Source: Pseudomonadota bacterium
GTDB lineage: Bacteria; Pseudomonadota; Alphaproteobacteria; Acetobacterales; Acetobacteraceae
Assembly: GCA_021845985.1 (NCBI GenBank)
Contig: JAJZES010000042.1
Coordinates: 1-64,000, forward strand
Length of the DNA: 64,000 nt
Direction of reading: 5' to 3'
The position numbers and the translations under genes are program-made. Every line of letters starts with the position of its first letter. Within the stretch, counting starts at the first letter, position 1. Below are positions 1 to 6,545 of this stretch, piece after piece. The notes beneath the pieces were generated by a model that was given only the letters and a program-made list of their open reading frames with translations, searched no databases and was not told the origin of the DNA.

Positions 1-1050
1 CCAAGGCGGACCTTGCCGGCATCGGTGGTGGGCAGGCTCGGGGACATGCCGCCGAGGCGGACCTTGCCGGCATCGGTGGTGGGCAGGCTCGGGGACATGC
101 CGCCGAGGCGGACCTTGCCGGCATCGGTGGTCGGCAGGCTCGGGGACATGCCGCCGAGGCGGACCTTGCCGGCATCGCTGGTCGGCAGGCTCGGGGACAT
201 GCCGCCGAGGCGGACCTTGCCGGCATCGCTGGTGGGCAGGCTCGGGGACATGCCGCCGAGGCGGACCTTGCCGGCGTCGGTGGTGGGCAGGCTGGGGGAC
301 ATGCCGCCGAGGCGGACCTTGCCGGCATCGGTGGTGGGCAGGCTCGGGGACATGCCGCCGAGGCGGACATTGCCGGCGTCGGTGGTCGGCAGGCTGGGGG
401 ACATGCCGCCGAGGCGGACCTTGCCGGCATCGGTGGTGGGCAGGCTCGGGGACATGCCGCCGAGGCGGACCTTGCCGGCATCGCTGGTCGGCAGGCTCGG
501 GGACATGCCGCCGAGGCGGACCTTGCCGGCATCGGTGGTCGGCAGGCTCGGGGACATGCCGCCGAGGCGGACCTTGCCGGCGTCGGTGGTGGGCAGGCTC
601 GGGGACATGCCGCCGAGGCGGACCTTGCCGGCGTCGCTGGTCGGCAGGCTCGGGGACATGCCGCCGAGGCGGACCTTGCCGGCATCGGTGGTCGGCAGGC
701 TGGGGGACATGCCGCCGAGGCGGACCTTGCCGGCATCGGTGGTCGGCAGGCTGGGGGACATGCCGCCGAGGCGGACCTTGCCGGCATCGGTGGTCGGCAG
801 GCTCGGGGACATGCCGCCGAGGCGGACCTTGCCGGCATCGCTGGTCGGCAGGCTGGGGGACATGCCGCCGAGGCGGACCTTGCCGGCGTCGCTGGTCGGC
901 AGGCTCGGGGACATGCCGCCGAGGCGGACCTTGCCGGCATCGGTGGTGGGCAGGCTCGGGGACATGCCGCCGAGGCGGACCTTGCCGGCGTCGGTGGTCG
1001 GCAGGCTCGGGGACATGCCGCCGAGGCGGACCTTGCCGGCGTCGGTGGTG
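1..1050. repeat. 51-bp tandem repeat array, about 20.5 copies
   Basis: An uninterrupted head-to-tail array with a 51-bp period begins before the window and ends near 1050. Copies differ at only a handful of fixed sites: A/G at the Asp codon, G/C at the Thr/Ser codon and at two Pro codons, plus single changes near bases 3 and 369. There are no spacers, so this is a minisatellite-like coding array and not a CRISPR. The near-identity of the copies suggests recent expansion or ongoing homogenisation. Confidence 0.95.
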
Positions 1051-1079
1051 GCGCACGCGCTGATCTTGGAGTCGGTCAT
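1..1079 (-). CDS. 17-residue tandem-repeat protein, partial (3' end outside window)
   Basis: The frame opens at an ATG at 1079, with AGGGGG seven bases upstream, and stays open to the window edge, so about 359 codons are visible. After a short unique start (MTDSKISACA) the protein is about 20 near-identical copies of MSPSLPTTDAGKVRLGG. Fifteen units read TTD and six read TSD; one unit has N for K. Other differences between units are mostly third-base and silent. The repeats carry no aromatic residues and no Cys, and each unit has one Asp, one Lys and one Arg. No family is recognised. A long frame on the other strand is open over the same array, because third positions of the two frames coincide, but it has no ribosome site or unique start and simply runs into flanking DNA. 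The short leader, the repeats and the low complexity could fit a secreted or structural repeat protein, or a multi-core peptide precursor. Function is unknown. Confidence 0.7.
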   Translation of the reverse strand, partial: MTDSKISACATTDAGKVRLGGMSPSLPTTDAGKVRLGGMSPSLPTTDAGKVRLGGMSPSLPTSDAGKVRLGGMSPSLPTSDAGKVRLGGMSPSLPTTDAGKVRLGGMSPSLPTTDAGKVRLGGMSPSLPTTDAGKVRLGGMSPSLPTSDAGKVRLGGMSPSLPTTDAGKVRLGGMSPSLPTTDAGKVRLGGMSPSLPTSDAGKVRLGGMSPSLPTTDAGKVRLGGMSPSLPTTDAGNVRLGGMSPSLPTTDAGKVRLGGMSPSLPTTDAGKVRLGGMSPSLPTSDAGKVRLGGMSPSLPTSDAGKVRLGGMSPSLPTTDAGKVRLGGMSPSLPTTDAGKVRLGGMSPSLPTTDAGKVRL

Positions 1080-1397: not shown

Positions 1398-2858
1398 TCA
1401 GGCGGCGGTGCCGCCCACCGTCAGCGCGGCGATTTTCAGTGTCGGCTGGCCAACGCCGACCGGCACGCCTTGCCCATTCTTGCCGCAGGTGCCGATGCCG
1501 GGGTCGAGCGCCATGTCGTCGCCAACCATCTCCACCCGCGTCAGCGCGTCCGGCCCGTTGCCGATGATCGTCGCGCCCTTGACCGGGGCGGTGATCCGTC
1601 CGTCCTCGATGAGGAACGCCTCGCTCGCCGAGAAGACAAATTTGCCGGAGGTGATATCAACCTGGCCGCCGCCGAAATTGACCGCATAGAGGCCGCGCCC
1701 CACCGAACGGATCATCTCGTCCTTGGTCTGCGTGCCGTTCATCATCACCGTGTTGGTCATCCGCGGCATCGGCGCGTGGGCGTAGGATTGCCGCCGCCCG
1801 TTGCCGGTGGCGCGCACCCCCATCAGCCGCGCGTTCAGCCGGTCCTGCATGTAGCCGCGCAGGATACCGTCCTCGATCAGCACGGTGCGGCTGGTCGGTG
1901 TGCCCTCATCATCGACCGTCAGGCTGCCGCGCCGGTCAGCCAGCGTGCCGTCATCGACCACGGTGACGCCCGGCGAGGCGATGCGCTGGCCGAGCAGGCC
2001 GGCGAAGGCCGAGGTCTGCTTGCGGTTGAAATCACCCTCCAGCCCATGACCGATTGCTTCATGGAGCAGGATGCCGGGCCAGCCGGGGCCGAGCACCACC
2101 GGCATCTCGCCGGCGGGCGCCGGGCGGCTGTCGAGATTGAGCAGCGCCTGCCGCAATGCCTCCTCGACCGCGGCGCGCCACTGCGCCGGGGTGGTGATGC
2201 GGTCATAGCCGAAGCGTCCGCCGCAGCCGTAACTGCCGGTTTCCCGCCGGCCACCGGCCTCGACCACGACCGAGACATTCAGCCGCACCAGCGGCCGCAG
2301 ATCGGCCACCCGCCGCCCATCGGCGCGGATGATCTGCACCGCCTGCCACTCGCCGCCGAGCGAAGCCATCACCTGGCGAACCCGCGGGTCCAGCCCGCGC
2401 GCATAGGCGTCGATGTCGCCGAGCAGGGCGGTGCGGGCAGCGAACGCCATGCCCGAGAGCGGATTGGCGTCCGAGTAGAGCCGCGCATTGCTCGGCCGCG
2501 GCGGCTCGCCAACGACCCCCGAATGGCCGGCGGTGACGGCGCCGACGGTGGCGGCGGCGCGCTTGAGCGCGTGTTCGGACAATTCGCCCGCATGGGCGTA
2601 GCCGGTGGCCTCGCCGGCGACGGCGCGCAGCCCGAATCCCAGCATGGTGTCGAAGCCGGCGGCGCGGATGCGCCCGTCCTCCAGGCTGGTCTGCTCGCTT
2701 TCGCGATATTCGAGGAACAGCTCGCCGTCATCGGCGCCGTCGAGCGCCGCGGCGGCGAGGCGTTCGGCGTCGTCACGCGCGAGGGTCGCGCCGGGACGCT
2801 CGAAGAACAGCCGGTCGGTCGTGGCCAGCGGCGAGTCGGAGAAAGCAGGTTGGGTCAT
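1398..2858 (-). CDS. tldD: TldD-type metalloprotease
   Basis: The 486-residue protein matches the TldD/PmbA family, zinc proteases whose TldD subunit, partnered by TldE/PmbA, degrades unfolded peptides and in some bacteria matures ribosomal peptides such as microcin B17. The family zinc motif HEAIGHGLEGD lies at about residues 266-276. The C-terminal part contains the Gly-rich stretches GNGRRQSYAHAP and CGKNGQGVPVGVGQP that are typical of TldD. The ATG at 2858 shares four bases (ATGA) with the stop of the upstream heme A synthase gene, so the two are likely translated together. No tldE/pmbA partner is visible. The open frame runs on upstream of this ATG, but that part is the ctaA gene in another frame. 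Confidence 0.93.
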   Translation of the reverse strand: MTQPAFSDSPLATTDRLFFERPGATLARDDAERLAAAALDGADDGELFLEYRESEQTSLEDGRIRAAGFDTMLGFGLRAVAGEATGYAHAGELSEHALKRAAATVGAVTAGHSGVVGEPPRPSNARLYSDANPLSGMAFAARTALLGDIDAYARGLDPRVRQVMASLGGEWQAVQIIRADGRRVADLRPLVRLNVSVVVEAGGRRETGSYGCGGRFGYDRITTPAQWRAAVEEALRQALLNLDSRPAPAGEMPVVLGPGWPGILLHEAIGHGLEGDFNRKQTSAFAGLLGQRIASPGVTVVDDGTLADRRGSLTVDDEGTPTSRTVLIEDGILRGYMQDRLNARLMGVRATGNGRRQSYAHAPMPRMTNTVMMNGTQTKDEMIRSVGRGLYAVNFGGGQVDITSGKFVFSASEAFLIEDGRITAPVKGATIIGNGPDALTRVEMVGDDMALDPGIGTCGKNGQGVPVGVGQPTLKIAALTVGGTAA

Positions 2859-3931
2859 GCAGCGTTCCGGGTCCGGGCGAGGGGGCGGGCGTGGTGGAGC
2901 GCGACGAGGATGGCCGTCAGCAACAGCACCGCCACTGCCTGATGCGCCGTCGCCAGCGCCACCGGCACCACGAACAGCAATGTGGTGACGCCGAGCGCAT
3001 ATTGCACCGCGACGACCGCAGCGAGCGCGAGCAGCGCCCGCCGCAACCCCGCGGCCGGGCGCTGCCACAGGCCGACGACCACCGTGACCAGCACCGTGGC
3101 GGCGGTCAGCGTGGCCAGCAGGCGATGGTCGAACTGCACCGCGGCAAGGTTCTCGGTCAGATTGCGCCAGAACGGATCAAGCTCGACGTAGGACGGCGGC
3201 AGCAGCCGTCCCTCCATCAACGGAAACGTATTGTAGATATATCCGGCATGCAGCCCGGCGGTGAAGCCGCCGGCGATGATGGTCAGCGCCACCAGCAGCG
3301 CCGAGGCGATCAGCAGGCGCCGCGGCGCCGGCACCGCGGCGGCAACCGGCTGCAGCACGGTCAGACCGGTCCAGATCAGGGCCGCATACAGCACCAGCGC
3401 CAGCACCAGATGCACCACCAGGCGATAGGCCGACACGGCGACGCTGTCGGGCAGAAACCCCGATGCGACCATGAACCAGCCGACCGCGCCCTGCAGCCCG
3501 CCGAGGGCGAACAGCAGCGCCAGCCGCGGCACCAGCCGCCGCTCGATCGCGCCACGCGCCCACAGCACCGCCAAGGGTACCAGGAACATCACCCCGAGCA
3601 GCCGACCCCACAGCCGATGGGTCCATTCCAGCCAGAAAATATGCTTGAAGCCGGCGAGGCCGAAGCCGTCATGCAGCAGGGCGTATTGCGGGATCTGCTG
3701 ATAGAGGTGAAACAGGCGTTGCCATTCCGCCTCGCTCAGCGGCGGCAGGGCGCCCATGATCGGCGCCCATTCCATGATCGACAGGCCCGAGCCGGTGAGC
3801 CGGGTCGCGCCGCCCAGCACCACCATGCCGAACACCATGCCGGCGACGCTGAGCAGCCAACCGCCGACAACGCGCCTGTTGCGCTCGGCGGCCTGCACTC
3901 CGGCGGGGAACTGGCGAACATCGAACGGCAT
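2855..3931 (-). CDS. ctaA: Heme A synthase, COX15/CtaA type
   Basis: This 358-residue polytopic membrane protein matches COX15/CtaA, which oxidises heme O to heme A for aa3-type cytochrome oxidases in the inner membrane. The features seen are eight likely hydrophobic helices, the early motif GGATRLTGSGLSIMEW, and the heme-ligand region around H97 and H105 (FKHIFWLEWTHRLWGR), with further His residues in the second half (QFDHR and TAHQA). Length and motifs fit the longer alphaproteobacterial type. The stop overlaps the tldD start as ATGA. No cytochrome oxidase gene is in the window. Confidence 0.93.
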   Translation of the reverse strand: MPFDVRQFPAGVQAAERNRRVVGGWLLSVAGMVFGMVVLGGATRLTGSGLSIMEWAPIMGALPPLSEAEWQRLFHLYQQIPQYALLHDGFGLAGFKHIFWLEWTHRLWGRLLGVMFLVPLAVLWARGAIERRLVPRLALLFALGGLQGAVGWFMVASGFLPDSVAVSAYRLVVHLVLALVLYAALIWTGLTVLQPVAAAVPAPRRLLIASALLVALTIIAGGFTAGLHAGYIYNTFPLMEGRLLPPSYVELDPFWRNLTENLAAVQFDHRLLATLTAATVLVTVVVGLWQRPAAGLRRALLALAAVVAVQYALGVTTLLFVVPVALATAHQAVAVLLLTAILVALHHARPLARTRNAA

Positions 3932-3985
3932 GACCGGGACAGATAGGGTGCAGCGCCGGCGGATGGTAGCCCGCCGGGGCCACGT

Positions 3986-4258
3986 TCAGTGCAGATGGGT
4001 CAATTGCGCCGCCTGCCGCCACTCGCCGGCACTGATCAGCCCGACCGAGGCGACCCGAACGGAATGCAGCCGGCCCTCGATCTCGCGTTCCCAGAACGCC
4101 AGGAAACGATGCAGCATCGGGAAGCGGGGGGCGATGTCGAGCTGCTGCCAGAGAAAGCTCTGCAGCACCGCCGGGTGGTCCGGTAGGTGGTAGAGGATTT
4201 CCGCGGTGGTCAGCCGATAGCCCTGCAATTGCCGCTGCAAATCTGTCGGTCGCTTCAT
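3986..4258 (-). CDS. usg: Usg family protein
   Basis: This 90-residue protein matches Usg, a small conserved alphaproteobacterial protein of unknown biochemical role, originally noted beside tryptophan genes. Recognisable parts are LTTAEILYHLPDHPAVLQ near the start, LAPRFP-like IAPRFPMLHRFLAFWE in the middle, and LHSVRVA near the end. The ATG at 4258 follows GGAGGACC on the minus strand and gives the usual family start (MKRPTDLQ). A longer in-frame start exists as far as 4489 but would lie across the groES promoter and operators. The gene is transcribed away from groESL. Confidence 0.85.
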   Translation of the reverse strand: MKRPTDLQRQLQGYRLTTAEILYHLPDHPAVLQSFLWQQLDIAPRFPMLHRFLAFWEREIEGRLHSVRVASVGLISAGEWRQAAQLTHLH

Positions 4259-4397
4259 CTGGTCCTCCGTCGCTGCTGCTCGGTGCCAGCCGTGTCGTCG
4301 TTCCCCGGGAGACGCCCGCCTCTGTGGCGCGGGTTGGCCCAGCATGGCACGCCGGGCGCGCTGCAATGCAAGTAAAAAATGCAGCGTTGTCAACCGT

Positions 4398-4424
4398 GTG
4401 GCACTCCCGGTGGGCGAGTGCTGC
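4398..4424. promoter_or_regulatory. CIRCE operator 1 (HrcA site), upstream copy
   Basis: The inverted repeat GTGGCACTC, nine bases, GAGTGCTGC matches the CIRCE consensus TTAGCACTC-N9-GAGTGCTAA in its central GCACTC/GAGTGC halves. It lies just upstream of the -35 hexamer of groESL. HrcA repressor binds CIRCE in many bacteria. The outer bases of the repeat are degenerate, so it may be a weaker site than the second copy. Confidence 0.75.
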
Positions 4425-4429
4425 CGGAC

Positions 4430-4458
4430 TTGACATGGCGCCGGGTTGGGCCTAGATC
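4430..4458 (+). promoter_or_regulatory. groESL sigma-70 promoter
   Basis: TTGACA at 4430-4435 and TAGATC at 4453-4458 are separated by 17 bases, and predicted transcription starts near 4465, inside CIRCE copy 2. The promoter is therefore bracketed by the two CIRCE operators. This is the expected arrangement for HrcA repression of a vegetative promoter. No RpoH-type promoter was obvious. Confidence 0.75.
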
Positions 4459-4459
4459 G

Positions 4460-4486
4460 CTGGCACTCCCGGACCGGGAGTGCTAA
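4460..4486. promoter_or_regulatory. CIRCE operator 2 (HrcA site)
   Basis: CTGGCACTC, nine bases, GAGTGCTAA. The right half matches the CIRCE consensus perfectly and the left half matches 7 of 9. The element overlaps the expected transcription start and would form a stem at the 5' end of the groESL mRNA. Confidence 0.93.
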
Positions 4487-4533
4487 CACAGCGCCGGCAG
4501 ACGCGCCGGCGGAAATATCCAGGAGCGATCCGA

Positions 4534-4848
4534 ATGAAGTTCCGTCCCCTGCATGACCGGGTCGTGGTCCGGCGCATCACCGCCGAAGAAAAGACCTCGG
4601 GTGGCATCATCATCCCCGACACCGCCAAGGAAAAGCCGATGGAAGGCGAGATCGTCGCTGCCGGCCCTGGCGCCCGCAATGAGCACGGCGAGCTCGTCGC
4701 GCTGGACGTGAAGGCGGGCGATCGGGTGCTGTTCGGCAAGTGGTCGGGCACCGAGGTCAAGCTCGACGGCGAAGAGCTGCTGATCATGAAAGAGTCCGAC
4801 ATCATGGGCATCATCGAGGGCAGCGCGGCCCAGAAAAAGGCCGCCTGA
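4534..4848 (+). CDS. groES: Co-chaperonin GroES
   Basis: This 104-residue cytosolic co-chaperonin forms the seven-subunit lid of GroEL. It shows the typical start [14 protein letters not shown], the mobile-loop segment [18 protein letters not shown] (about residues 16-33), and the C-terminal [16 protein letters not shown] at 4521-4525 sits eight bases before the ATG. It is the first gene of the groESL operon under the CIRCE-controlled promoter, with groEL 50 bases downstream. Confidence 0.97.
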
Positions 4849-4892
4849 TCCGTCCGACGACGCCCATTATCAAGAGTAAAAGAGAAGGATAG

Positions 4893-6545
<1,653 letters not shown>

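Follow-up and report, generated by a model that had tools for sequence, protein, structure and literature searches.

A short-motif repeat array and a DUF6065-group partner form a two-gene system, hitherto undescribed, that is common in Acetobacteraceae

Introduction

Among the described systems that come close to the locus reported here are the algal Rubisco linkers EPYC1 and PYCO1 (PMC6265248, PMC10288592), the latter of which cross-links Rubisco (PMC10288592). The likeness is one of analogy and lies in repeated short motifs through which an oligomeric partner may be docked in many copies; sequence, motif, and partner are all unrelated. Multi-core precursors of RiPPs, graspetides included, likewise have a small ORF in which a short unit is repeated, but the array family differs from them in that several members have no leader and in the lack of a conserved tailoring enzyme, protease, exporter, or set of donor/acceptor residues. 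The gene that accompanies the array encodes a protein of the DUF6065 group (PF19541) with a predicted dUTPase fold. We know of no described function for DUF6065, and the classical loci of this family that we examined show no such repeats adjoining, unlike those of the clade to which the partner belongs.

Results

A 17-residue repeat gene truncated by the contig end

The window, that is, the whole 64,000-nucleotide stretch analysed here, belongs to a contig (C16) that breaks inside a repeat array, so that the repeat gene is incomplete in it (Table 1). The first-pass annotation of this DNA had described a near-perfect 17-residue repeat behind a tiny unique start, and both TRF and our reading of the minus strand confirm that description. 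The 51-bp period recurs in 20.5 copies with 96% matches and zero indels (TRF score 1903), and the recent expansion also proposed at that stage is supported. The ORF starts at an ATG at position 1079 of the minus strand and remains open up to the contig start, with only ten unique residues (MTDSKISACA) ahead of the array, whose first, partial unit (TTDAGKVRLGG) follows directly. No signal peptide was apparent by eye at this N-terminus.

Six columns vary among the 24 complete units that could be read, 19 in the window and five on a second contig of the same genome (C18). Three of these columns hold silent third-base changes (Pro, Pro, Asp), and the other three alter the residue (Thr/Ser at 13:11, Pro to Gln once, and Lys to Asn once), much as had been noted from the window, where copies were said to differ mostly by silent third bases and a Thr/Ser switch. 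Pairwise pS and pN among these units were 0.090 and 0.019, respectively. The copies of an array are products of duplication and not independent of one another, so that a single array is weak evidence of selection; the selection on the peptide that had been deduced from this pattern is shown by conservation across genera and not by the silent changes seen here. Similarly, all six frames are open through the GC-rich array, so that the open minus frame proves nothing by itself, and it is the conservation across genera with diverged DNA that establishes the minus frame.

The array continues on a second contig and is followed by the partner gene

A search of the same genome placed the other end of the array at the start of contig C18, outside the window, where it reads ...MSQSLPTSDAGKVRLGGMRPSV-stop. 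The end of the gene and its downstream neighbours were thus recovered. The partner gene, whose product has 269 residues, starts 102 bp past the array stop, and a BTAD-TPR regulator gene lies convergent with it, about eleven bases beyond the partner stop. Repeat and partner are both missing from two sister genomes (G002 and G004), in which the gap between tldD and the BTAD gene is 16 and 30 bp. The joining of C16, which carries tldD, to C18, which carries the BTAD gene, through the array rests on this empty-site comparison, which supports it and further shows that array and partner are gained or lost as one unit.

Table 1. Coordinates of the repeat gene and its neighbours. Positions refer to the window unless a contig or locus is named.
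Feature	Location	Strand	Description
Repeat gene, first part	1..1079	-	MTDSKISACA, partial unit, 19 complete 17-residue units, and a cut unit
Unique N-terminus	1046..1079	-	MTDSKISACA, 10 residues, before the first (partial) unit
Tandem array	4..1049	-	Period 51 bp (TRF)
tldD	1398..2858	-	Upstream neighbour, same direction; PmbA_TldD domains
ctaA (COX15), groES, groEL	2855-6545		Housekeeping neighbours
Other end of the array	C18:1-291 (L009)		Start of contig C18
BTAD-TPR regulator gene	L009:1215-3320 (contig C18)		Convergent downstream of the pair

Distribution and anatomy of the array family

The partner was matched at E <= 0.001 in 127 of 397 Acetobacteraceae genomes, a few of these being weak matches to classical DUF6065, and the pair is present in about a third of the family genomes sampled. 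Among the relatives that carry a name are Rhodopila globiformis, Elioraea tepidiphila, Roseomonas rosea, R. populi, R. harenae, Acidisphaera, and Limobrevibacterium. Two further alphaproteobacterial families also have close partners accompanied by arrays (L242-L245). The phylum sample yielded no strong relatives outside the class, a result of little weight because the genomes listed there all belong to that same class.

At least one unit was found upstream of the partner in 70 of the 76 named loci with readable upstream sequence. Among the six exceptions, L160, L185, and L189 had no unit nearby, and L137, L147, and L157 map by their coordinates to G061, G221, and G184, all genomes from one genus. 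The array lies elsewhere in G061 and G221, with the partner absent from the ~8.4 kb fetched around it, indicating that the two genes can separate and both persist.

Unit number ranges from one (L187, L197, L199) to at least 19 (L146), and the spacing between units from 9 to 49 residues. The most constant feature of the unit is V/I-x-x-G-small, which the search pattern itself imposes in part. In the home clade, the motif reads x-V-R-[LM]-G-[GA]-hydrophobic-[SA]-P-x-L and the unit extends to DxGKVRLGG(M/F/Y)(S/A)P(S/T)L, while units from other clades read GRVSTGGLQRAI, GTVRTGAGMRTP, VDVEMGGLSPLF, GKVRLGNMSPAF, and SKVKLGMMAPAF; divergence is accordingly wide, as exemplified by KVRLGGMSPSL, VSTGGLQRAI, VRTGAGMRTP, and VEMGGLSPLF. 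Composite arrays were seen upstream of the partner in L127 and L130, where a full unit alternates with a short VRLGAMSP (spacing 9 and 17), which shows that the core can repeat without its linker. Several arrays begin at residue 2-4 (MTKVRIGMMAP, MTTTVRLGAM, MTTVMMGGLSP) and finish at the stop, and hence have neither leader nor follower. Some array proteins reach only 30 residues.

A contig end falls within 1.3 kb upstream of the partner in 38 of 80 named loci, and within 1.3 kb downstream in five of the 80. This clustering indicates that the array breaks assemblies and that array length is generally underestimated. Runs of N were also observed inside arrays of draft genomes (L055/L122, L114, L144, L154, L180), suggesting that gap-filled scaffolds hide further array copies.

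In agreement with the initial impression that the repeat fits no known family, none was found that describes it in Pfam, NCBIfam, or PHROGs, an absence that is not in itself proof of novelty, and no diverse member of the repeat family matched a Pfam or NCBIfam family over cut-off. The matches that did appear in these two databases, Hep_core_N and PRK15460 among them, were fragments only, with unrelated names, and were discarded as low-complexity noise. Our search of the literature on the partner family (DUF6065/PF19541), on the repeat, and on RiPPs of Acetobacteraceae found no relevant description.

Co-occurrence and correlated divergence of repeat and partner

Of 299 family genomes, 63 carry both repeat and partner, five the repeat only, 33 the partner only, and 198 neither (Fisher p 7e-34); the test takes no account of phylogeny, the composition of the 299-genome set is inferred, and the repeat profile sees mainly home-clade repeats. 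Distances between motifs correlate with distances between partners (Mantel r 0.63, 0 of 5000 permutations), a correlation that stems in part from shared ancestry. Paralogous pairs within one genome bear different motifs (L096, L097). The repeat and partner genes make up a two-gene system that is common in Acetobacteraceae and has gone undescribed.

The partner has a predicted dUTPase fold

The partner scored 52.1 bits against the Pfam DUF6065 profile (PF19541; cut-off 26.6) and is therefore a DUF6065 protein, albeit of a distinct clade that matches mainly profile positions 84-166. An AlphaFold2 model derived from 52 sequences (pLDDT 85.7) grouped with dUTPases (Foldseek, VIA), with 3ecy_A at E 2.2e-5, Z 12.1, and rmsd 2.9 over 119 residues. 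Sequence homology to dUTPases was rejected, as hhalign gave a non-significant P of 0.068, yet this alignment runs in register with motifs 2-4. According to it, weak as it is, PRSG of dUTPase motif 2 falls on PCAN in the partner, IDADYRG corresponds to a motif-3-like IETDRWFG, and the motif-4 Gln is retained. The C-terminal motif 5 arm (GGFGSTG) is absent from the partner sequence (P0003), and the model has extra C-terminal helices with respect to the dUTPase fold. What the partner shares with the dUTPase / dCTP deaminase group is thus the predicted fold (Z about 12), the Gln, and the motif-3-like stretch, and it is set apart by motif 2, the arm, and the added helices. A separate dUTPase is encoded in the same genome. 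The partner therefore probably binds something through a dUTPase-like pocket or surface and would not hydrolyse dUTP.

No convincing match was obtained when solved structures were searched by sequence. PADLOC assigned no toxin or defence family to the partner, and recognised neither partner nor regulator. A weak match to PHROG 7084 was recorded, and classical DUF6065 had no match in phage records. Some classical DUF6065 proteins (L045, L046, L048, and L256) occupy open frames of 570-580 residues, a length that suggests a C-terminal extension of ~300 residues, and an M20-like amidohydrolase ORF was observed upstream of the classical gene in L253, L254, and L255.

Neighbouring genes

The only neighbours that recur beside the pair are the BTAD gene and tldD/ctaA, the flanking genes of this genome being housekeeping. 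The tldD family processes some bacterial peptides. A role of tldD as a maturation protease was considered and rejected in favour of a positional association, as the gene is also present in sister genomes devoid of the pair; it is probably a landmark of the site, outside the system. tldD and ctaA occur together next to many home-clade arrays. The regulator gene on C18 encodes a BTAD domain (PF03704, 41.2 bits vs 22.1) and is the sole match of its kind in this genome. BTAD-TPR genes adjoin the pair in two ways, convergent downstream in the home clade and divergent upstream in other clades. The case for the BTAD gene as a strict third member is nonetheless weakened by its persistence in genomes without the pair.

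The proposal that the units might be graspetide cores, prompted by the Thr, Asp, and Lys in each, found no support, as other members of the family do not keep these residues (ETSKVRLG, GKSKVKLG, VDVEMGG, GRVSTGG). Nor did the neighbouring genes of the pair include any conserved RiPP enzyme, ATP-grasp, radical SAM, protease, or export gene.

Discussion

Our favoured reading, to which we assign a probability of roughly 0.4 and which is therefore tentative, is that the repeat gene encodes an intracellular array of short linear motifs, each docking the partner, and that the array probably binds this protein. The first gene product would probably be intracellular and consist mostly of a string of such motifs joined by linkers of variable length; the second would be the DUF6065-group protein, with its predicted dUTPase fold devoid of catalytic motif 2 and of the motif 5 arm. 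Each motif would most likely serve as the docking site for one partner protomer. Proteins of the dUTPase fold are usually trimers, and an oligomeric partner of this kind would be cross-linked or clustered by a multi-motif chain, by analogy with EPYC1 or PYCO1 and Rubisco, with copy number tuning avidity. Docking is the simplest reading because the partner is gained, lost, and diversified alongside the array, and independent motifs would account for unit counts that run from one to at least 19 and for spacings that vary between 9 and 49 residues. Clustering cannot be the whole role, as single-motif members are unable to cross-link. The pairing and the correlated divergence are observations, whereas direct binding, clustering, a trimeric partner, a ligand of any sort, and the physiological role are all inferred. 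Doubtful in our view is a more ambitious form of the proposal, namely that an array of tunable valency, as a bacterial counterpart of the algal Rubisco linkers, gathers catalytically dead trimers of the dUTPase fold into a lattice or condensate, and that throughout Acetobacteraceae motif and partner evolve as matched pairs.

A small repeat ORF lying directly upstream of a conserved gene without an assigned activity, and made of units that differ between lineages, could also be that of a multi-core RiPP-like precursor. Its units would then be core peptides that the partner, or else an unlinked enzyme, modifies and that are excised and released. The first-pass annotation had raised this possibility, which survives here only as an unlikely rival: tldD does adjoin the array in many home-clade loci, but it stays where the pair is absent, several members lack both leader and follower, the neighbouring genes include no conserved RiPP enzyme, protease, or exporter, and the predicted fold of the partner, with dUTPase motif 2 missing, is unlike known RiPP enzymes. 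The order of the genes, their joint gain or loss, and the single-unit members would suit a titrating or inhibitory regulator, in which the array fills the partner pocket or replaces the missing C-terminal arm and thereby controls ligand binding or signalling, in the extreme as a toxin-antitoxin-like pair. The arm that the partner lacks is the one that closes the dUTPase site, and some units (RMGGFAPT) are faintly similar, by eye only, to the dUTPase arm RGxGGFGST; this resemblance is lost, however, in other clades (GNM, GMM, GTM), the partner matched no toxin or defence family, and inhibition does not need high copy number, so that we deem such a regulator quite unlikely.

Very unlikely is a structural or surface protein in which the 17-residue units stack into a beta-solenoid. 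A single-sequence AlphaFold2 model of the array did reach a pLDDT of 88.4, with regular strands every 17 residues, but the other four models scored 70-75, and AlphaFold2 gives confident but unrealistic solenoids for perfect repeats (PMC11795689), an artefact on account of which the model was rejected. Moreover, members with one or two units cannot form a solenoid, unit length varies within and between arrays instead of staying constant over many units, and no export signal is apparent. The surface, ice-, or mineral-binding array contemplated at the outset is unlikely on similar grounds, namely the lack of a signal peptide by eye and the existence of single-unit members.

The gene pair belongs to no known kind that we could identify, and what is new is the pair, not a proven mechanism. 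It stayed hidden because the array looks like low complexity, breaks assemblies, and sometimes amounts to only 30 residues. The pair would extend the dUTPase fold to a probable non-dUTPase role, a possibility that can be tested with two small proteins. The family also amounts to a naturally occurring set of matched motifs and partners, with motif counts from one to at least 19, in which the dependence of binding or clustering on valency and motif sequence can be examined.
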